A DNA stretch of 64,000 nucleotides from Nitrospiraceae bacterium (GTDB taxonomy: Bacteria > Nitrospirota > Thermodesulfovibrionia > Thermodesulfovibrionales > UBA1546), in the NCBI GenBank assembly GCA_021373015.1, contig JAJFTJ010000014.1, forward strand, positions 200,323 to 264,322, given 5' to 3'. Of the stretch, positions 22,133 through 42,886 are shown piece by piece. Every line of letters begins with the position of its first letter. Position 1 is the first letter of the stretch. Below the pieces are notes generated by a model. The model was not told where the DNA came from. It saw nothing but the letters and a program-made list of their open reading frames with translations, and did not search any database. A program made the translations under genes and the position numbers.

Positions 22133-22273
22133 ATGGGAACATATACAACATTTCGTCCACATAAAAAGAAGAGAAAACGCACACACGGATTCCTTGAGCG
22201 CATGAGCACAAGGGGAGGGCAAAACACCGTCAAGCGCAGAAGGTCAAAGGGAAGAAAAAAACTTACTGCTTAA
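22133..22273 (+). CDS. rpmH: Ribosomal protein L34
   Basis: A 46-residue, highly basic protein. The L34 signature is plain: [18 protein letters not shown] followed by a tract ending [13 protein letters not shown]. The N-terminus ([12 protein letters not shown]) is two residues longer than the common MKRTFQPS type. GGAG lies nine bases before the ATG. In most bacteria rpmH is followed directly by rnpA, then yidD and yidC; here only 95 bases separate it from yidD and no rnpA fits. Confidence 0.96.
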
Positions 22274-22368
22274 AACAGCAAAATGTTGTTTGTATTTTTT
22301 CTTAAAAGATATGCTATTGTGCCTCGCCGGCAAAAAGCTTTATCGTATGCAAAAAGGCAGGTAAGACA

Positions 22369-22578
22369 ATGAAAGCAATTTTGCTGGCATTTTTAAGAGG
22401 ATATAAATATCTGATCTCGCCTTTGCTTCCAAGCAGTTGCAGGTTTACCCCTACCTGTTCTGAATATTCAGCAGAGGCAATAAGAAAATATGGCGCGGCA
22501 AAAGGCGCATATCTTACAATTAAAAGAATTTTCAAATGTCATCCATTCCACCCGGGTGGATATGATCCAGTGAGGTAA
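22369..22578 (+). CDS. yidD: Membrane protein insertion efficiency factor YidD
   Basis: 69 residues, the usual size. Family motifs are [30 protein letters not shown] (amphipathic helix and conserved cysteines) and [18 protein letters not shown]. It helps insertion of membrane proteins at the YidC/Sec site, on the cytoplasmic face. It precedes yidC by 9 bases. An AGG lies upstream of the ATG. Confidence 0.96.
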
Positions 22579-22587
22579 TTAATATAC

Positions 22588-24162
22588 ATGGAAAAAAGAG
22601 CTCTTATAGCAGTAGTCCTTTCATTAGCAGTACTTATTGGATATCAATTTTTCGTCACACCTCCAAAACAGCAGCCAATCAAGGAACAAAAAGAACAGGA
22701 GGCTGTTAAAAAAGAAGAGAAAAAAGAAGAACCACAGAAACAAAAACCAATTCTCCCTGCCAAACAAACAGCGCAGTCACAGGGCAGAGAGATAACAATA
22801 GATACAGAGCTTTATTCTGCAGTGCTTTCGTCCACAGGCGGAACAATTAAAAAATGGGAACTCAAGAAATATAAGGATAAAGACGGGCTCGGGATAATGC
22901 TTCAGTCAGGACAGAGCATTGTCCCTGCCTTAAGCATTGGTTCTCAGGATAATTTCAATTTTTCGAATGTAAATTTCAGGGTTTCAGGAACAAACATGAA
23001 ACTCGACAATAATAGCAGAACAGGTTCGGTTATTTTTGAATACACAGCATCAGGATATTCGATAAAAAGAACATACACATTCTACAGCGACTCTTATAAA
23101 TTCGATTTGAAGGATGAGGTAAAAGGCCTTCCTGAATACTGGATTACAGTAGGAAGTGATTTCGGCATTCACAGTAATACAGACGGCTCGCATACAGGCC
23201 CGGTACTTCTCAAGGAAGCTGAGAGGATAGAGCTCGAAGCAAAAAAAATTAAGGATCCTAAAAGCTACAAAGGGAAGATTAAATGGATTGCACAGGAAGA
23301 TAAATACTTTTTTTCATCAATAGTTCCTCTTGGGCAGGTGGAAGAGGCAAAGTCATGGACAGTAACCCCACAGGTAAATGATCCAAAATCACAGAAGCAG
23401 GTTGAAACTCCTGTTATTGCATTAAGAACTAAAGCTGATGTGAATTCATTTCTTATATATGCAGGCCCGAAAGAACATGATGTTCTCAAGAAGCTCAATA
23501 TCGGGCTTGAACATATAATTGATTTTGGTTTTTTCTCGATAATCTCAAGACCGCTTTTTTGGCTTCTTAAGATCTTTTACAATATTGTGGGAAATTACGG
23601 ATGGGCAATAGTCTTAATAACAATTATAACCAGAATTCCTTTTATCCCTCTGATAAATAAGAGCCAGAAGTCGATGAAGAAGATGCAGGAGATCCAACCC
23701 AAGGTTCAGGAACTCAGAGAAAAATACAAGAATGACCCCAAGAGAATGCAGCAGGAGATGATGGCAATCTATAAAAAGCACAAGGTCAATCCTATTGGCG
23801 GATGCCTTCCGATGCTTTTACAGATTCCTGTTTTCTTTGCGCTTTACAGCATACTTTCGATTGCTATTGAATTAAGACATGCTCCGTTCATATTCTGGAT
23901 AGTAGATCTTTCAGTCAAAGACCCTTATTATGTTCTGCCTATTATCATGGGCATCACAATGCTCATACAGCAGAAGATGACACCAAGTTCAATGGATCCG
24001 ATGCAGGCAAAGATAATGATGTTCATGCCGATAATATTTACCGTCATGTTCATTAATTTTGCGTCAGGTCTTGTTCTTTACTGGCTTGTGAATAATATCC
24101 TCTCAATCATCCAGCAGTTTTTTGTTAACAAGAAACTTGCACAGGAAAAAGCAGAGGGATAA
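22588..24162 (+). CDS. yidC: Membrane protein insertase YidC
   Basis: 524 residues, the Gram-negative long form. There is an N-terminal helix (ALIAVVLSLAVLIGYQFF), a low-complexity KEQ-rich linker, a periplasmic beta-sandwich domain (about 65-300), and the C-terminal insertase core with five helices (NYGWAIVLITIITRIPFIPL, KVNPIGGCLPMLLQIPVFFALY). It inserts and folds inner-membrane proteins alone or with SecYEG. It is co-transcribed with yidD. The usual next gene, jag/khpB, is absent; three small minus-strand genes lie between it and mnmE. Confidence 0.97.
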   Translation: MEKRALIAVVLSLAVLIGYQFFVTPPKQQPIKEQKEQEAVKKEEKKEEPQKQKPILPAKQTAQSQGREITIDTELYSAVLSSTGGTIKKWELKKYKDKDGLGIMLQSGQSIVPALSIGSQDNFNFSNVNFRVSGTNMKLDNNSRTGSVIFEYTASGYSIKRTYTFYSDSYKFDLKDEVKGLPEYWITVGSDFGIHSNTDGSHTGPVLLKEAERIELEAKKIKDPKSYKGKIKWIAQEDKYFFSSIVPLGQVEEAKSWTVTPQVNDPKSQKQVETPVIALRTKADVNSFLIYAGPKEHDVLKKLNIGLEHIIDFGFFSIISRPLFWLLKIFYNIVGNYGWAIVLITIITRIPFIPLINKSQKSMKKMQEIQPKVQELREKYKNDPKRMQQEMMAIYKKHKVNPIGGCLPMLLQIPVFFALYSILSIAIELRHAPFIFWIVDLSVKDPYYVLPIIMGITMLIQQKMTPSSMDPMQAKIMMFMPIIFTVMFINFASGLVLYWLVNNILSIIQQFFVNKKLAQEKAEG

Positions 24163-24177: not shown

Positions 24178-24666
24178 TTATTGGAGTCCGTCTTTGGCAG
24201 AATCCCAGATAAGCACATCAGGCTGGCCATTTTTATACTTATCACATAATTTGTGGGATGCGATAGCAACAAAAGACTTTTCATCCGCTTTTACTATCGA
24301 AATATCAACTCCAGGGTTAATTGGCAGATTAAAAATATAGAAATCTCTGGTAAAGGTTTTTTTCTCGGAAAAATATTTATGTTCAGCGTCAGCAAGTTTT
24401 ATCAAAGCTGTTTTTGCCTGCTTGCAAGGTCTTTGAGCTTCGTACTTAGGAATGATTATAGCTGCTGTAATGCCTATGCCTGCAATCATAATCATGAAAT
24501 CAGTGTTTCCACCGCCGCCAAAACCTCGGTGTCCAAATATAAAAGAGAAAATAACTGCAATAAACCATAGCGATGCCAAGAGTATCATGACCCATGAAAC
24601 ATACCCGAAAAAATATATCATCAATGCTGTTATTCCGCCTAAGACGATAACAAACAAACAGCCCAT
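24178..24666 (-). CDS. Hypothetical membrane protein with pilin-like C-terminus
   Basis: 162 residues with two N-terminal helices (about 3-22 and 25-45), a glycine-rich turn (HRGFGGGGNTD) and a third hydrophobic segment (MIMIAGIGITAAIIIPKYEAQ). This last segment and the following stretch (ALIKLADAEHKYFSEKKTFTRDF) look like the N-terminal helix and alpha-beta loop of type IV pilins or pseudopilins, but without the prepilin cleavage site. GGAGG precedes the ATG, supporting expression. No function is assigned. It is convergent with yidC and follows the cupin gene on the minus strand. Confidence 0.65.
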   Translation of the reverse strand: MGCLFVIVLGGITALMIYFFGYVSWVMILLASLWFIAVIFSFIFGHRGFGGGGNTDFMIMIAGIGITAAIIIPKYEAQRPCKQAKTALIKLADAEHKYFSEKKTFTRDFYIFNLPINPGVDISIVKADEKSFVAIASHKLCDKYKNGQPDVLIWDSAKDGLQ

Positions 24667-24679
24667 ATCTACCTCCGAA

Positions 24680-25132
24680 TTATTTCGATTCTATCTCTGT
24701 AAAATCATTCTTATGCACTGTTATCATCATGCCGGAGGTTCCGGCATAAAAAACTATAATCTCAGCAGGCGTGCTGCCTTCGTTCTTTCCATAGTGCCAA
24801 GTATGCACAACTTCAACAAACGCTTCTCCAGCTTTGAGTTTTAGTATCTTATTGTCTGAAGTTATCACAGTAAGCTCTCCGCTTAGTAATACGCCTGCAT
24901 TTATAACAGGATGTTTGTGCAGAGGCAATTGTGCTCCGGGAGGGATTTTTATTTTTAATATTGTTATCTCTGGTTTTCCTTCTGAATATTCAGGCAGAGG
25001 TTTGCTATCCCAGCTTAAACTGGTTTTCGATAAAACATCTACTATAATACCAGTTCCCTCTTCAGCCGAGGAGTAACTCGTCAAAAATAAAGCAATGCAT
25101 AAAACATAAAGTAGTATTTTTATTTTATTCAT
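24680..25132 (-). CDS. Exported cupin-domain protein
   Basis: About 150 residues from the ATG at 25132; the frame allows nine more to 25159. The preferred start gives a clear signal peptide (KIKILLYVLCIALFLTSYSSA). The mature part is a single cupin barrel: motif 1 is PPGAQLPLHKHPVINAGVLLSGEL and motif 2 includes VHTWHYGKNEG. Metal-binding candidates are the two histidines of HKH, an acidic residue in the GEL segment and the later H of VHTWH. Periplasmic cupins of this type have unknown substrates. It lies in a row of three AT-rich minus-strand genes inserted between yidC and mnmE. Confidence 0.75.
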   Translation of the reverse strand: MNKIKILLYVLCIALFLTSYSSAEEGTGIIVDVLSKTSLSWDSKPLPEYSEGKPEITILKIKIPPGAQLPLHKHPVINAGVLLSGELTVITSDNKILKLKAGEAFVEVVHTWHYGKNEGSTPAEIIVFYAGTSGMMITVHKNDFTEIESK

Positions 25133-25160
25133 TTTACTATTTTGCTTAGTAGCAATCATA

Positions 25161-25655
25161 TTACCATGCTACCGACAGTATTAGAGAGTAAGAACCAGTA
25201 ATATATAGAAATCTATAAACCCACGTATCCACAAGCTCTGGTAATGAGCCAGTATCAAAAGTTTCAGCCTCTGACTCTGCTCTCCCTAAAGTAGCCCACA
25301 AAAGTAAACCAATTCCTCCATATTGGAGCCAGCTGTTTAATATTGAAGACTTATTAATGGACAATGAATTAAATGCTACTGCAGAAGAAAGTGCAGCTAT
25401 GATTGAAAGAAGTACTAAGCAAAAAGCCCTTAGCAATGACGAACGAATACGTGATACGGAATCTCTAAATAAATTATTGTATTTTGAGCGCAAATCATAT
25501 TCTTGATTAGGTGTCAAATATGTCGAAATCGACGCTGAACGAATTTCACGATCAATTGCACAATCAACTGAATGTTTAATCAATTTATTGTGGGAAAATA
25601 CAAGCAGAAAAATAGCCTTAGCCCAGCTAATAGTTTTAATTTTTTTTAGTGTCAT
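25161..25655 (-). CDS. Hypothetical protein with two membrane segments
   Basis: 164 residues, no family recognised. There is an amphipathic N-terminal region, a charged middle (EYDLRSKYNNLFRDSVSRIR), one clear helix (AFCLVLLSIIAALSSAVAF), a second (YGGIGLLLWATLG), and a final hydrophobic stretch. No Shine-Dalgarno is seen. It abuts the cupin gene, and its sequence is more AT-rich than the surrounding housekeeping genes, so it may have been acquired. I believe it is real because the frame is long and the membrane pattern is coherent, but with moderate confidence. Confidence 0.5.
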   Translation of the reverse strand: MTLKKIKTISWAKAIFLLVFSHNKLIKHSVDCAIDREIRSASISTYLTPNQEYDLRSKYNNLFRDSVSRIRSSLLRAFCLVLLSIIAALSSAVAFNSLSINKSSILNSWLQYGGIGLLLWATLGRAESEAETFDTGSLPELVDTWVYRFLYITGSYSLILSVAW

Positions 25656-25799: not shown

Positions 25800-27194
25800 A
25801 TGAATCTGTTGGATGATACAATTACCGCGATCTCTACTCCGCTCGGAGAGGGCGGAATCGGCATTGTGCGGCTGAGCGGAAAAGACGCTGTGCGCATTGC
25901 AGAGAAACTTTTTCATTCTTCAAAAAACAAAAAACTCTCGAACATCTCATCTCACAAAATCATCCATGGAGTGATAAAAGACCCTGAAACAAAAGAGACA
26001 ATCGATGAAGTGCTTGTTTCAGTGATGCTTGCGCCTCATACATATACAAAAGAAAATATTGTCGAGATTAACTGTCATGGAGGAATGCTTCCTCTAAGAA
26101 GAGTGCTGGAGCTTGCGCTTAAACACGGCGCAAGACTTGCAGAGCCCGGAGAATTTACTAAAAGGGCTTTTTTAAACGGGCGCATTGATTTGAGTAAGGC
26201 AGAGGCAGTGCTTGACCTTATTAAAGCAAGGACAGATGAGTCAGGAAAGATTGCGCTTGAACAGTTAAAAGGCAGGCTTTCAGAAAAGATTTCTGATCTA
26301 AGAGAAAGACTCACAGATCTCTGCGTTACAGTCGAGACATATATCGATTTTCCTGATGAAGAGATAGAAATTTCTACAAAAGATGAGATGAAAGAAGCGA
26401 TAAAAAAAATTATTCAGGAACTCGAATCTTTGTTAAAGAGCTATGACGAAGGAAGATTTTTCAGGGAAGGGCTTGCCGTTGCAATCGTAGGAAGGCCGAA
26501 TGTCGGAAAGTCGTCTTTGCTTAATGCTTTGCTTCAACGGAACAGGGCGATAGTTACCGAGATGCCGGGCACAACAAGAGACATCATTGAAGAATATCTG
26601 AACATCAATGGCTTGCCTCTCAGGGTAATTGATACTGCAGGAATAAGAGAGTCTCATGACATGGCAGAGATTGAAGGCGTAAAGAGGAGCTTGAGCGCGA
26701 TCGAAAATGCTGACCTGATCATAGCTGTGATAGATGGAAGCCATGATTTAAAAAATGAAGACATAGAGGTTCTGGAAAAGATTAAGGACAGGAATACTAT
26801 TATTGCGATAAATAAATCAGACATTATGAGAGATGAGAATTGCAAAAAATTCAAAGGTGCTTTTTCAAAATATCAGATGCGCATTATAAAGATTTCTGCC
26901 CTGAAAGACCACGGAATAGATGAATTAAAAAATGTAATCTTTAATTCTTCTGTTAAAAACTGGAATGAGCACAAAGAGGGAATTATAATCACAAACCTAA
27001 GGCATAAGACTTTAATTCAGGCAGCGTATGATTCTCTTAAAGACGCGGTAGAGGCTTTTAATACAGACAAGCCTGTTGAGATAATTGCAATTGGGCTTCG
27101 GGACAGTCTTGATAAACTCGGAGAGATAATCGGCGCTGTTACAACTGATGATATATTGAACAGGATATTCAGCAGCTTCTGTATCGGGAAATAA
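25800..27194 (+). CDS. mnmE: tRNA modification GTPase MnmE (TrmE)
   Basis: 464 residues. With MnmG it adds the carboxymethylaminomethyl group to wobble uridine 34 of several tRNAs. The N-terminal tetrahydrofolate-binding domain begins DTITAISTPLGEGGIGIVRLSG. The inserted G domain has G1 GRPNVGKS, the switch PGTTRD, G3 DTAG and G4 NKSD. The C-terminal helical domain ends in the invariant FCIGK with its cysteine. There is no Shine-Dalgarno, and a perfect extended -10 lies at the right distance for a leaderless mRNA. It is convergent with the HARP gene, with two bases between stops. Confidence 0.97.
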   Translation: MNLLDDTITAISTPLGEGGIGIVRLSGKDAVRIAEKLFHSSKNKKLSNISSHKIIHGVIKDPETKETIDEVLVSVMLAPHTYTKENIVEINCHGGMLPLRRVLELALKHGARLAEPGEFTKRAFLNGRIDLSKAEAVLDLIKARTDESGKIALEQLKGRLSEKISDLRERLTDLCVTVETYIDFPDEEIEISTKDEMKEAIKKIIQELESLLKSYDEGRFFREGLAVAIVGRPNVGKSSLLNALLQRNRAIVTEMPGTTRDIIEEYLNINGLPLRVIDTAGIRESHDMAEIEGVKRSLSAIENADLIIAVIDGSHDLKNEDIEVLEKIKDRNTIIAINKSDIMRDENCKKFKGAFSKYQMRIIKISALKDHGIDELKNVIFNSSVKNWNEHKEGIIITNLRHKTLIQAAYDSLKDAVEAFNTDKPVEIIAIGLRDSLDKLGEIIGAVTTDDILNRIFSSFCIGK

Positions 27195-27196
27195 AT

Positions 27197-27817
27197 TTAG
27201 TCTGCTTCTACAGAGGCAAGGTAATCAGCGCGTTTTATAGAGCTGAGCATATATTCTTTGAATTTTGCTGAGATGAGCCATCTTATGCCGAATTTTTCAG
27301 CCCACTTTATCAACCCCTGATCAGCAGTAACAAGCAGGGCGTCAAGCTCGCGTGCAAGAAGAATCAGATCAACATCTTCTTTGCTGTCGATGATGCCCTC
27401 TCTTAATGCCTCTCTGTATTTTCTTCTCAAGTCTTTCACGACCTCTTCTTCGCCTGATTTTGCAGCTCCTCTCACAGCTTTTTCTGCAACCCTGAGACCT
27501 TTGTTAATCCTTTCCCTGATATCTTCGATGAGTTCATAGAGCAGAAATGCAGGGCATGTAAGTTCATATTTTTTAGGCGGTTTTTGATGAAGTAGCACAA
27601 GCAGATCACCAGATATCTTTTCAGGTTCTATGAAATTCAGAAGCTCTTCAAAAATAGAAGGCGGCATGTAAAACTCAAGTGTTGGAACTTGTGCTGCGAT
27701 TGATAAAAAATTTTCGAGCGCTTCTGTAGGAGTCTTACCGAAACTGTCGCGAACTTCCGGATTAACGAACAGGCTTGTGTCTAATACAACAGTGCTTCTT
27801 TTAGATTTTACGGTCAT
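27197..27817 (-). CDS. RNA-free ribonuclease P (HARP family)
   Basis: 206 residues, PIN-like nuclease fold. It matches the Aquifex Aq_880-type protein-only RNase P (earlier called RNA ligase partner/UPF0278), as I remember that sequence: VVLDTSLFVNPEV at the N-terminus; the helical spike region YELTCPAFLLYELIEDIRER and INKGLRVAEKA; LRRKYREALREGIIDSKEDVD; LLVTADQGLIKWA. Acidic residues D13, D144, D148 and D166 have the same spacing as the recalled Aq_880 catalytic aspartates D7, D138, D142 and D160. The predicted activity is removal of 5' leaders from tRNA precursors. It overlaps the end of the LapA-LapB gene by 17 bases. Whether it is the cell's only RNase P cannot be known from this window. 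Confidence 0.88.
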   Translation of the reverse strand: MTVKSKRSTVVLDTSLFVNPEVRDSFGKTPTEALENFLSIAAQVPTLEFYMPPSIFEELLNFIEPEKISGDLLVLLHQKPPKKYELTCPAFLLYELIEDIRERINKGLRVAEKAVRGAAKSGEEEVVKDLRRKYREALREGIIDSKEDVDLILLARELDALLVTADQGLIKWAEKFGIRWLISAKFKEYMLSSIKRADYLASVEAD

Positions 27818-29111
27818 CTATATTAAGGCTGAAGGTATTCCAGTTGCTGCAGTCAGGACACCTTCCCACCCACTCCTTTGAAGAATATCCGCAGACAGAG
27901 CACCAATATGGAAGTCTGAATGCAGGCTTAATGCCCATGGCTTTTTTATATTCTATGGCAGCTAAGTCACATTGTCCGCGTTTAAGGTAAAGATCGCCCA
28001 TTATCTTATGTATTTCAGCCATAGTAACACCGGTTGTATCGATGGAATCGAATGTTCTGATTGCATCATCAATCATCTCAAGTCTGTAGTAAAGTTTGCC
28101 AAGAAAAACCCTTAGCATAATATTTTGGGGATTTTTAGCAATAAGGTTTTGATAAAGCCTTATCAACCGTGAAGGCTCGCCGAGATTTATAAGAAGATCT
28201 TCAAATCTTGCAAGTATTATCAGTGAGGATGTCTGCTCATAACATTTTTCAAGGTAATCGGCAACCTCGTCTGTCTCGCCTTCTCTCAGCTTCACCTCAG
28301 CAAGTCCCAAATATGCTGGGATGAAACTGCTGTTTAGTCTCATGATTGTCTTGAATGCTTTGCGCGCTTTTTCAAGTTCTCCATTCTCAAGGCAATTGCG
28401 TCCGTATTCATATTTGTAACCAAGGAGATTTATCTGCTCTCTCTGGCGGTCTTTTTCCGCATGTTCGTGTTTCAGAATTGTTTTTTGCACATCAACAAGC
28501 TCATCCCATTTTTCTTCTCTTTCGTGAACAGCGCGTTTTTTGTACAGCGCTGCCAGATTGTCTGCATCAATATCAAGAATCTTCTCAATGTAATTCAAGG
28601 CATCAGCCCATCTGCCTGTTTTTTCCATAAGATTTTCCAAGGCGAAAAGCACTTCCAGATTCAAAGGATAGGCAGAAAATACCTTGTTGTAGTAAATTAG
28701 CGCCTGCTGATAATTGTCTTCTGAACAGGCAATGTCCCCAAGCCTCAGAAGTGCGTGAAGATGTTTCGGTTCTTCCTGCAGGATTATTTCAAGGGGTTCT
28801 TTTGCCTCATCTTCAGCATGGGCAAGAAGAGCATTTAATGCCCTTGAATAAAGCTCCTGCACCCTTGCTTCTTTTTTCTGCTTGCGTTGGTGCTGCCAGT
28901 TGCCTATAAAACGCTTAGTGTCTCTTATTGTAAAGACGATGAGCATTGCAAGAGCCCCGGCAACGCTTGAGAGAAGTATCAGTGCAATCTTCGGAATTTC
29001 ATAGACTTCATCAAAGGGAATTTTTATAGTTGTGATTTCTTTGTTGTCGATTGCAAGGAGCGCAAGTCCGGTAAGAAAAAGGACCACTATAAAAATAGAG
29101 AGCTTGCCCAT
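27801..29111 (-). CDS. LapA-LapB fusion: membrane-anchored TPR protein with rubredoxin-like zinc site
   Basis: 436 residues. The first 70 carry two helices around a short loop (LSIFIVVLFLTGLALLAIDNKE and IPKIALILLSSVAGALAMLIVF), matching LapA (DUF1049). Residues about 80-400 are TPR repeats. The C-terminus is a LapB-type zinc motif (WCSVCGYSSKEWVGRCPDCSNWN). In enterobacteria LapA and LapB are separate adjacent proteins; LapB controls LpxC turnover through FtsH and so lipopolysaccharide synthesis. Here both are one chain. The gene precedes and overlaps the HARP gene. Confidence 0.85.
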   Translation of the reverse strand: MGKLSIFIVVLFLTGLALLAIDNKEITTIKIPFDEVYEIPKIALILLSSVAGALAMLIVFTIRDTKRFIGNWQHQRKQKKEARVQELYSRALNALLAHAEDEAKEPLEIILQEEPKHLHALLRLGDIACSEDNYQQALIYYNKVFSAYPLNLEVLFALENLMEKTGRWADALNYIEKILDIDADNLAALYKKRAVHEREEKWDELVDVQKTILKHEHAEKDRQREQINLLGYKYEYGRNCLENGELEKARKAFKTIMRLNSSFIPAYLGLAEVKLREGETDEVADYLEKCYEQTSSLIILARFEDLLINLGEPSRLIRLYQNLIAKNPQNIMLRVFLGKLYYRLEMIDDAIRTFDSIDTTGVTMAEIHKIMGDLYLKRGQCDLAAIEYKKAMGIKPAFRLPYWCSVCGYSSKEWVGRCPDCSNWNTFSLNIDDRKI

Positions 29112-29514: not shown

Positions 29515-30195
29515 TTACCTGTATATCTTATTAGAAATTATATAGGATTCGACTTCTTCTGGCAACAGGTATTTTGCAGTTTTCCCCTCTTTAATCAGCT
29601 TTCTTATCACAGTTGATGATATTTCTAGCGGAGTAAGTTTTAAAAGTATCACATCTCTATTAGTCTTAAGTTTTGTTCTATAAATTCCTGTTTTTCCAGT
29701 TTCGATTTTTTTTAATACACTTTCACTTATCTTTGAAAAAGGGAAAGAAGAAAGGTCAGAAAATTTAAACGGCGGTCTGGATATAACAACAAAATTTGTG
29801 AGCTTAAGAAGCTCTTTGGGCTTCCACCACTTAGGGATTTCCAGAAAAGCATCTATGCCTAGTATGAAATAAAACGAGGCATCTGGATATAACCTATAAA
29901 GATGCTTAAGTGTATTCACAGAGTAAGATATGCTCTTTTTTTTATATTCTATGTCTGATATCTTAAAATTTCTGTTTCTGAATGTAGCCAACCTTGTCAT
30001 CTTATATCTGTGTTTTGCGTCTGCAAGACCGTTGTTTTTAAGAGGAGGACTTCCTGACGGCATGAAAATTACGAAGTTGAGCTTGAGTTTTTCCAATACC
30101 TCTTCCGCAGCCCTTAGATGACCGATGTGGATTGGATTGAATGTCCCGCCTAATATTCCGATTTTCAATATGTTTTTATTGTTATTTGCCTTCAT
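29515..30195 (-). CDS. nadD: Nicotinate-nucleotide adenylyltransferase
   Basis: 226 residues from the ATG at 30195. The frame is open to 30273, but those residues would overlap rlmI and precede the fold. It transfers AMP to nicotinate mononucleotide in NAD synthesis. The nucleotidyltransferase motif is GGTFNPIHIGHL (T/HxGH, near the N-terminus), and the later ISSTVIRKLIKEGK is the second catalytic motif. FVIFMPSGSPPLKN is typical of bacterial NadD. It sits before rsfS, the usual arrangement. The choice between 30210 and 30195 is uncertain as no Shine-Dalgarno stands out. Confidence 0.93.
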   Translation of the reverse strand: MKANNNKNILKIGILGGTFNPIHIGHLRAAEEVLEKLKLNFVIFMPSGSPPLKNNGLADAKHRYKMTRLATFRNRNFKISDIEYKKKSISYSVNTLKHLYRLYPDASFYFILGIDAFLEIPKWWKPKELLKLTNFVVISRPPFKFSDLSSFPFSKISESVLKKIETGKTGIYRTKLKTNRDVILLKLTPLEISSTVIRKLIKEGKTAKYLLPEEVESYIISNKIYR

Positions 30196-30253
30196 GTAGT
30201 TACTTATCATGCATAAGACTTGATTGTCAAGGAAATGAATCTTGGATTTTGAA

Positions 30254-31414
30254 TCATAAGGACAAGAATGCACATTTTAAATATTCTGTTTCTGGCACTG
30301 AAAGAAGAACAGGGTGGTCTTTTGCCTGAGACCGGTATTCGAGAATCTTGATTTGTTTCCCAGCATTTTTTGCTGAATTTCTGAGCATTTCTATAAACAC
30401 AGATTTCTCTATATGATATGAACAGGATGATGTTGCTAATATTCCTCCATGTTTAAGGAGTTTCATTGCAAGGGTATTAATCTCATGATAGCCTTTTAAC
30501 GCTTCTTTTATCTTAAGTCTGCTTTTTACGAATGCAGGAGGATCTAGCACGATAAAATCGTATAAAACTCCTGAGGCAATAGAATCTTTCAGAAAATTAA
30601 AAACATCTGCTTTTATAAAATCACATTTACTTTCCAAATTGTTTCTCTTTGCATTAGAGCGCGCATGTGAGATCGCTGTTTCTGAATCATCAACAAATGT
30701 GACTGAAGCGCCATTGTGCGCAAGCTGGAGTCCCCATGCGCCTGAATAACAGAAAAGATCAAGCCCTTTTCCGCCTGGGACTAATTCTTTTAGAGCCAGC
30801 CTGTTTTCTCTCTGGTCAAGAAAGAATCCTGTTTTTTGTCCAGCCAAGGGATTAACCTCAAGAAGTATATTGCCTTCGCGTATAATCGGAAGTGTATCAA
30901 GCGAGCCCTTTACAATCTCTTTTTTTAGTTCAAGCCCTTCAAGTGTTCTGCTCTGGCTGTCGTTTTTTAAGATGATAACAGACGGCTTGAGTATTTCATC
31001 AAGCAGAGGAACTATTGTATCTCTAAGTTTTTCTATCCCGAGTGTGAGAAACTGCATGACAAGACAATCATTGTATTTATCGACTATCAACCCCGGCAGA
31101 AAATCACTCTCGCTGAAAATTACCCTGAATGAATCGTTGTCTTTGCAGAATCTTTTTCTGTAATCCACTGCTTCAAGAATGCGTTTTCTGAAAAAGTCAG
31201 CATTGATCTCTTCGTTTTTTCTTGTTAGAAGTCTGACAGAGATGAGCGAATTAGGATTGATATAACCGATTCCAATAAAATTATTTTTTGTGTCATGAAC
31301 TTCTACTATTAGACCGGGCTCATAGTTTCTTGGACTTACTGCAAGTTCATTGGAAAATATCCATGAATGGCCGGCAAGTATCCTGCTTGTTCTGCGTAAG
31401 ATTATTTTATTCAT
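30254..31414 (-). CDS. rlmI: Class I SAM-dependent rRNA methyltransferase, RlmI/RlmK-like
   Basis: 386 residues. There is an N-terminal PUA domain (RTSRILAGHSWIFSNELAV...LIVEVHDTKNNFIGIGYINP), a middle alpha-beta domain, and a Rossmann methyltransferase domain. QKTGFFLDQRENR, DLFCYSGAWGLQLA (SAM loop) and the catalytic VLDPPAFVKS are characteristic of the YccW/RlmI group, which methylates C5 of a cytosine in 23S rRNA. Specificity could differ, since RlmI, RlmK and archaeal homologues share these motifs. Its 3' end reaches the 5' side of nadD. Confidence 0.88.
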   Translation of the reverse strand: MNKIILRRTSRILAGHSWIFSNELAVSPRNYEPGLIVEVHDTKNNFIGIGYINPNSLISVRLLTRKNEEINADFFRKRILEAVDYRKRFCKDNDSFRVIFSESDFLPGLIVDKYNDCLVMQFLTLGIEKLRDTIVPLLDEILKPSVIILKNDSQSRTLEGLELKKEIVKGSLDTLPIIREGNILLEVNPLAGQKTGFFLDQRENRLALKELVPGGKGLDLFCYSGAWGLQLAHNGASVTFVDDSETAISHARSNAKRNNLESKCDFIKADVFNFLKDSIASGVLYDFIVLDPPAFVKSRLKIKEALKGYHEINTLAMKLLKHGGILATSSCSYHIEKSVFIEMLRNSAKNAGKQIKILEYRSQAKDHPVLLSVPETEYLKCAFLSL

Positions 31415-36932: not shown

Positions 36933-37007
<75 letters not shown>

Positions 37008-37010
37008 ATT

Positions 37011-37086
37011 GGCGGCGTACCCAAGTGGCTAAGGGGGAGGTCTGCAAAACCTTTATGCAGCGGTTCAAATCCGCTCGCCGCCTCCA
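37011..37086 (+). tRNA. tRNA-Cys (GCA)
   Basis: Acceptor GGCGGCG/CGCCGCC, anticodon loop CTGCAAA with GCA, T arm AGCGG-TTCAAAT-CCGCT, discriminator T, CCA encoded at 37084-37086. It starts 3 bases after tRNA-Gly, so both come from one precursor that needs 5' processing by RNase P. Confidence 0.97.
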
Positions 37087-42092: not shown

Positions 42093-42821
42093 ATGATCGT
42101 TATTCCTGCAATAGATTTGAAGCAAGGACAATGCGTAAGGCTTCTTCAGGGGAAAAAAGAAGAAGTTACTGTTTATTCAAATTCGCCTGCTGAAACAGCA
42201 AGACTATGGGAGTCCTGCGGAGCAAAACTTCTGCATGTTGTCGACCTTGACGGCGCATTCACAGGAAGTCAGAAAAATCTTGACGCAATCATAGAAATAA
42301 GAAAAGCAGTCTCTCTTGATATAGAAGTCGGCGGAGGAATCAGGGATATAAAAAAAATCGACAAACTGATAAATATCGGCGTCAACAGAATAATACTAGG
42401 CACTGCAGTAATAGAGAATCCTGATCTTTTTAAAGAAGCCTGCAAAAAATACTACGGTAAAATTCTTGTAGGGATAGACGCAAGAAATGGGAAGGCTGCT
42501 GTAAAAGGCTGGGTCGAGGATACTGATTTCGACGCAAAAAAACTTGCGAGAGATTCTGAGAACTCAGGAGCAGCAGGAATAATATACACAGATATTTCCA
42601 GAGACGGAATGCTCACAGGCCCGAATATAAAAGCAATGCTGGAAATGGTTGACAATGTTCAAATTCCCGTCATCGCATCAGGCGGAGTTTCGTCATTAGA
42701 AGACATTAAAAACCTCAAACAAATAAAAAATCTATGGGGAGTAATTGTCGGAAAAGCGATTTATTCAGGAGCAGTTGATTTAAAAGAAGCGATAAAAATT
42801 GGTGCCGAAGGCGGGATTTGA
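42093..42821 (+). CDS. hisA: ProFAR isomerase (HisA)
   Basis: 242 residues, TIM barrel. It isomerises N'-ProFAR in histidine synthesis. The N-terminal MIVIPAIDLKQGQCVRL has the catalytic aspartate, and DISRDGMLTGPN the second; GGGIRD and ASGGVSS bind phosphate. The frame could extend to an ATG at 42078, but that falls inside the -10 box and adds nothing conserved. The last seven codons (IGAEGGI) lie on the antisense of the tRNA-Leu 3' end. The rest of the his operon is not here. Confidence 0.95.
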   Translation: MIVIPAIDLKQGQCVRLLQGKKEEVTVYSNSPAETARLWESCGAKLLHVVDLDGAFTGSQKNLDAIIEIRKAVSLDIEVGGGIRDIKKIDKLINIGVNRIILGTAVIENPDLFKEACKKYYGKILVGIDARNGKAAVKGWVEDTDFDAKKLARDSENSGAAGIIYTDISRDGMLTGPNIKAMLEMVDNVQIPVIASGGVSSLEDIKNLKQIKNLWGVIVGKAIYSGAVDLKEAIKIGAEGGI

Positions 42822-42886
42822 ACCCGCACAGTCTTGCGACCACTAGACCCTGAACCTAGCGCGTCTGCCAGTTCCGCCACTTCGGC
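42800..42886 (-). tRNA. tRNA-Leu (CAG)
   Basis: Class II tRNA with a long variable arm. Acceptor GCCGAAG/CTTCGGC, D arm with GGCAGACGC, anticodon stem CTAGG/TCTAG with loop TTCAGGG (anticodon CAG), T arm GCGGG-TTCAAAT-CCCGC, discriminator A, CCA encoded. Its last 22 bases overlap the 3' end of hisA on the other strand. Confidence 0.95.

Follow-up and report, generated by a model that had tools for sequence, protein, structure and literature searches.

The window, that is, the whole stretch of 64,000 nucleotides analysed, contains on its minus strand a gene for a small protein-only RNase P (HARP), which is a tRNA 5'-trimming enzyme made entirely of protein, without an RNA subunit, and known mostly from hot-spring bacteria. 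This gene and its neighbours are the following:

25800..27194, plus strand, mnmE (tRNA modification GTPase), convergent with HARP and separated from it by a 2-nt gap
27197..27817, minus strand, HARP of 206 amino acids, ATG start, assigned from the open reading frame and the TIGR03875, PIN_5 and PDB matches
27801..29111, minus strand, LapB-like TPR protein with a C-terminal rubredoxin-type zinc ribbon, upstream of HARP
29515..30273, minus strand, nadD-like nucleotidyltransferase, further upstream in the same conserved order

The coordinates and the length of 206 residues given in the original prediction were exact, and its assignment to the HARP family was borne out by curated models and by solved HARP structures. 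The search against TIGR03875 that it had proposed gave 204.5 bits (E-value 1.2e-60, cut-off 95.3), and the PF08745 PIN_5 profile gave 202.3 bits (7.5e-60, cut-off 27). The HARP family profile covered residues 10–190 of the 206, which amounts to a full-length match. The best solved match was PDB 7e8k (“RNA-free ribonuclease P”; 3.7e-68), aligned without gaps over residues 6–194, and the HARP chain of PDB 8ssf/8ssg covered nearly the whole protein (1.2e-46). From the gapless 7e8k alignment, the product consists of one PIN domain, about 23 kDa in size, into which a helical region (the spike) is inserted. An AlphaFold model built from 12 close homologues had a low mean pLDDT (52.8) and was set aside; it was unnecessary because HARP chains of known structure already matched strongly. 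As judged from its sequence, the product of 27197–27817 is a genuine HARP, and it is the only copy in the host genome.

The four aspartates to which catalysis had been attributed (D13, D144, D148 and D166) are all present and are invariant across 81 aligned homologues. Their counterparts in Aq880, reportedly the Aquifex aeolicus HARP of Nickel et al. in 2017, had been given as D7, D138, D142 and D160. The catalytic aspartates of that protein have been published as D7, D138, D142 and D161 (PMC8266387), so that the first three agree and the fourth had been placed one position off. Regarding the spike helix, the substrate-binding residues of the Hydrogenobacter HARP, on which its processing of pre-tRNA depends, are R127, K129, R131 and also R125 (PMC10652100). 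According to the PDB alignment, three of these four positions are basic in the protein studied here, R127, K129 and R131 being kept as Arg131, Lys133 and Arg135, whereas R125 corresponds to Asp129.

The start of the HARP gene is overlapped by 17 nt by the lapB-like gene, and therefore translational coupling between both is likely. HARP lies downstream of a gene encoding a LapB-like TPR protein in 77 of 80 named related loci (85 of 90 when duplicates are included), mostly with nadD before lapB. In the genomes of the class encoding both HARP and the RNA enzyme, hereafter dual genomes, HARP adjoins lapB by coordinates in all 11. The keeping of this pairing class-wide suggests that the TPR protein and the RNase P are on a shared transcript. 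A credible HARP remnant was not found after lapB in any of the 23 loci read from genomes having the RNA enzyme only; other genes occupy this place, for instance leuS- or nif3-like ones, as judged from protein starts. The vicinity of mnmE was also considered as a general rule and rejected, since this adjacency was seen only in some close relatives. Three small minus-strand genes are located at 24178–25655, between yidC and mnmE, one encoding a cupin and two without any Pfam match.

The RNA-based RNase P is used by nearly all cells and is among the few ribozymes thought to be near-universal. Its absence from this host, which had been suspected from the presence of HARP, was supported by searches of the whole genome, in which neither rnpA nor rnpB of types A and B was detected. 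The host assembly comprises 1,685,579 bases (1.69 Mb) in 22 contigs and is listed as 100% complete and 0% contaminated. No match to the rnpA model PF00825 was obtained in it, 10 of 14 positive controls being matched by the same search. Likewise, the models for type A (RF00010) and type B (RF00011) RNase P RNA gave no match in the host genome and recognized the known control genomes; the absence of rnpB thus refers to these two Rfam types, and a highly divergent RNA outside both would escape detection. In addition, the site that rnpA usually occupies, immediately after rpmH, was read in the window, in which the gene order is rpmH-yidD-yidC:

22133..22273, plus strand, rpmH (ribosomal protein L34), usual upstream neighbour of rnpA
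22274..22368, plus strand, closed rnpA slot without rnpA, 95 nt from the rpmH stop to the yidD start
22369..22578, plus strand, yidD
22588..24162, plus strand, yidC

Measured by match coordinates, the gap between rpmH and yidD is 98 nt in the host and 106 nt in L004, a close HARP-bearing relative, and it ranges from 333 to 439 nt in nine relatives with rnpA in between. The absence of rnpA is therefore backed by synteny as well as by the models. Because the assembly is divided into 22 contigs, a small chance persists that rnpA or rnpB falls in an assembly gap. Both genes are likewise missing from about 105 relatives, and some of these are single-contig genomes (G004, G042, G066 and G147). HARP is most likely the only RNase P of this cell. 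A possible rnpA remnant inside the 95-nt gap was inspected by eye and was not convincing. The vacated site (22133–22368) and the gene that would replace the lost enzyme are thus found in one window, about 5 kb apart.

The host genome has 43 tRNA genes, three of which are located in the window:

36933..37007, plus strand, tRNA-Gly(gcc), 3' CCA encoded, presumed substrate
37011..37086, plus strand, tRNA-Cys(gca), 3' CCA encoded, needs 5' cleavage if co-transcribed
42800..42886, minus strand, tRNA-Leu(cag), 3' CCA encoded, presumed substrate

The tRNA-Gly/tRNA-Cys pair, proposed beforehand as a natural substrate, is real, and the proposal is sensible because a tRNA-Cys located 3 nt after a co-transcribed tRNA-Gly cannot be leaderless. 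The 3-nt spacer of this pair (Gly-ATT-Cys) has a parallel elsewhere in the genome (Lys-TTT-Glu), where a closely spaced Ile-Ala pair is also found. Tandem tRNAs with 3-nt spacers cannot all be leaderless and, as a consequence, a 5' processing enzyme is needed. The 3' CCA is encoded in 33 of the 35 host tRNA genes read with their flanks, compared with about one fifth of the tRNAs in Hydrogenobacter thermophilus (PMC12153264). The Hydrogenobacter HARP cuts CCA-bearing pre-tRNA tenfold more slowly (PMC10652100). HARPs of this group may be tolerant of CCA; otherwise, slow cleavage must be enough.

For placing the host among its relatives, 396 genomes of the phylum that were at least 80% complete were searched for HARP, RnpA, RNase P RNA and the Rnl3 ligase, and the results were tabulated for the class of the window, Thermodesulfovibrionia. 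Both rnpA and rnpB were found, each in 274 of the 396 genomes and mostly at very high scores. Within the class, about 105 genomes have HARP only (a count that includes G229, with a truncated match below the cut-off at a contig end), 11 are dual and 56 have the RNA enzyme only. Across the class, genomes with one of the two enzymes mostly lack the other, and with few exceptions each family is of one type: f1–f5, f7, f12, f15, f17, f19 and f21 are HARP-only, f6, f9, f11, f14, f16, f18 and f20 have the RNA enzyme only, and f8 and f10 are mixed. Ten of the dual genomes belong to f8 and one (G208) to f13; in G329, rnpA was present and rnpB undetected. The nearest named relatives are MAGs of Thermodesulfovibrionales and of other Nitrospirota, many from groundwater or sediment judging by their titles, and they point to Thermodesulfovibrionia as the class. 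HARP alone appears to be the usual condition across much of this group, about 100 of the relatives surveyed looking alike. At least one genome, G125 (family f7, listed as 100% complete), yielded none of HARP, rnpA and rnpB, probably on account of an assembly gap. The only HARP genome outside the class, G360 (family f31), has a convergent adjacent ligase together with rnpA and rnpB, and looks like a separate transfer.

The Rnl3 ligase has been reported in 89% of HARP genomes and a functional pair with HARP has been proposed (Seshadri and Gopalan, 2025; PMC12153264). However, the TIGR01209 ligase was not found in the host genome, nor is there one beside its HARP gene. Within the class, the ligase was missing in 90 of the 105 genomes with HARP only and present in 9 of the 11 dual ones, in which its gene is typically convergent with HARP; this association with the dual state gave a Fisher p of 7e-6 with kinship ignored. 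The HARP-ligase pair thus goes with dual genomes in this class, and genomes with HARP as sole RNase P are usually without ligase.

By analogy with solved HARPs, the protein would act as a 23-kDa PIN-domain metallonuclease forming oligomers up to dodecamers. Its basic spike helix would bind the tRNA elbow, and the pre-tRNA would be cut between −1 and +1 with Mg2+ held by D13, D144, D148 and D166. Our main reading, to which we give a probability of about 0.93, is that this HARP with its intact catalytic residues is the sole RNase P of the cell and that the RNA enzyme has been lost, with rnpA gone from its place between rpmH and yidD and no rnpB detected. Catalytic activity, oligomeric state, essentiality and the order of events are what we infer for this particular HARP. 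In vitro, no cleavage of pre-tRNA was obtained with four bacterial HARPs, as cited in PMC12153264.

A rival explanation is a divergent classical RNase P, RNA and protein, which does the main work undetected and leaves HARP as a side enzyme. The archaeal HARPs occur side by side with the RNA enzyme and can be dispensed with (PMC12153264), and eleven relatives of the class carry both. Nevertheless, the same models detected rnpA and rnpB in 274 of the 396 phylum genomes each, so that it is unlikely for a type to escape them almost exclusively in HARP-bearing genomes, and the space from rpmH to yidD is too short for rnpA; we regard this explanation as quite improbable. The known association with the ligase, together with its presence in 9 of the 11 dual genomes, typically convergent with HARP, could also indicate that HARP is chiefly an Rnl3 partner acting on other RNAs, or one half of a toxin-antitoxin pair, with tRNA cleavage being secondary. 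The lack of ligase in the host, beside its HARP gene and in most HARP-only genomes makes such a role very improbable here. Finally, a cell with leaderless tRNAs, as in Nanoarchaeum equitans, would not need RNase P and would likewise show the loss of both rnpA and rnpB, the PIN protein then having another role. We give this last proposal hardly any credence, given that the Gly-Cys, Lys-Glu and Ile-Ala pairs cannot all be leaderless and that the active site of HARP is fully conserved.

The history of the replacement was considered on a tree of LapB, on which HARP presence requires 4 changes and presence of the RNA enzyme 7, in a quick tree of a single linked gene whose change counts give no direction. 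The states of its rows came from coordinate matching between two collections, ambiguous rows being dropped or settled by their place in the tree. The dual genome G208 (f13) neighbours the family of the window, and those f8 genomes that have no RNA enzyme are interspersed with dual ones. Most simply, HARP would have been acquired once, long ago, next to lapB, and after a dual period either of the two enzymes would have been lost repeatedly; the position of HARP after lapB in most loci and in all dual genomes fits an old gain with repeated loss of the RNA enzyme. We lean, with considerable reserve, towards a Thermodesulfovibrionia ancestor with both enzymes, from which the RNA enzyme was lost several times, including in groundwater and sediment lineages, HARP alone then handling mostly CCA-encoded tRNAs and mostly without ligase. 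If this is true, replacement by HARP is neither a thermophile peculiarity nor tied to the ligase.

Comparison with known systems placed this HARP close to Aq880, with which it shares the TIGR03875/PIN_5 family, the size, the catalytic aspartates, a host without rnpA and rnpB, and the order rpmH-yidD-yidC without rnpA, described for A. aeolicus in PMC10941002. It differs in that its host belongs to Nitrospirota and not to Aquificota, in that HARP follows lapB and in the ligase gene not found in the host; a further trait of this host is the nearly complete encoding of CCA in its tRNA genes. The HARPs of PDB 7e8k and 7e8j, both named “RNA-free ribonuclease P”, are also similar and come from other organisms. 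The chain of 8ssf/8ssg, with the spike-helix likeness and the single difference given above, we take to be Hth1307 of Hydrogenobacter thermophilus, going by the residue numbers in PMC10652100.

HARP-only Nitrospirae, with HARP and without RnpA, were already described for a few genera in a study in which rnpB was not searched (Daniels et al., 2019; PMC6380272) and were mentioned again in 2021 (PMC8266387); HARP and its solitary state are thus already known in this group. With respect to the 2019 genera, the host is of the same phylum and likewise has HARP without RnpA, and here rnpB was also searched and the rnpA slot read. Thermodesulfovibrionales are listed in the 2025 HARP survey (PMC12153264). 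No open-access report was found that describes how far this condition extends through the class, how HARP is linked to lapB, the intermediates with two enzymes or the missing ligase, subscription papers and supplementary tables being outside the scope of this search, and part of this may be in print. The approximately 105 HARP-only genomes, beside dual relatives and others with the RNA enzyme only, amount to a natural experiment from which the causes and the course of ribozyme replacement could be learnt. In the class it could also be tested whether precursors bearing CCA are processed by HARP and whether it functions where the ligase is missing.

Loss of the encoded CCA was considered as a hallmark of HARP-only genomes, the median number of CCA-pattern matches being 32 in these and 37 in genomes with the RNA enzyme only (p 0.008 by genome). 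It is not claimed, because the difference reached only p 0.10 by family and was driven by family f5. The genomes of this HARP-only family (G037, G042, G066 and G147) have 3–5 such matches each and, unlike most others, f5 seems to have lost the encoded CCA.
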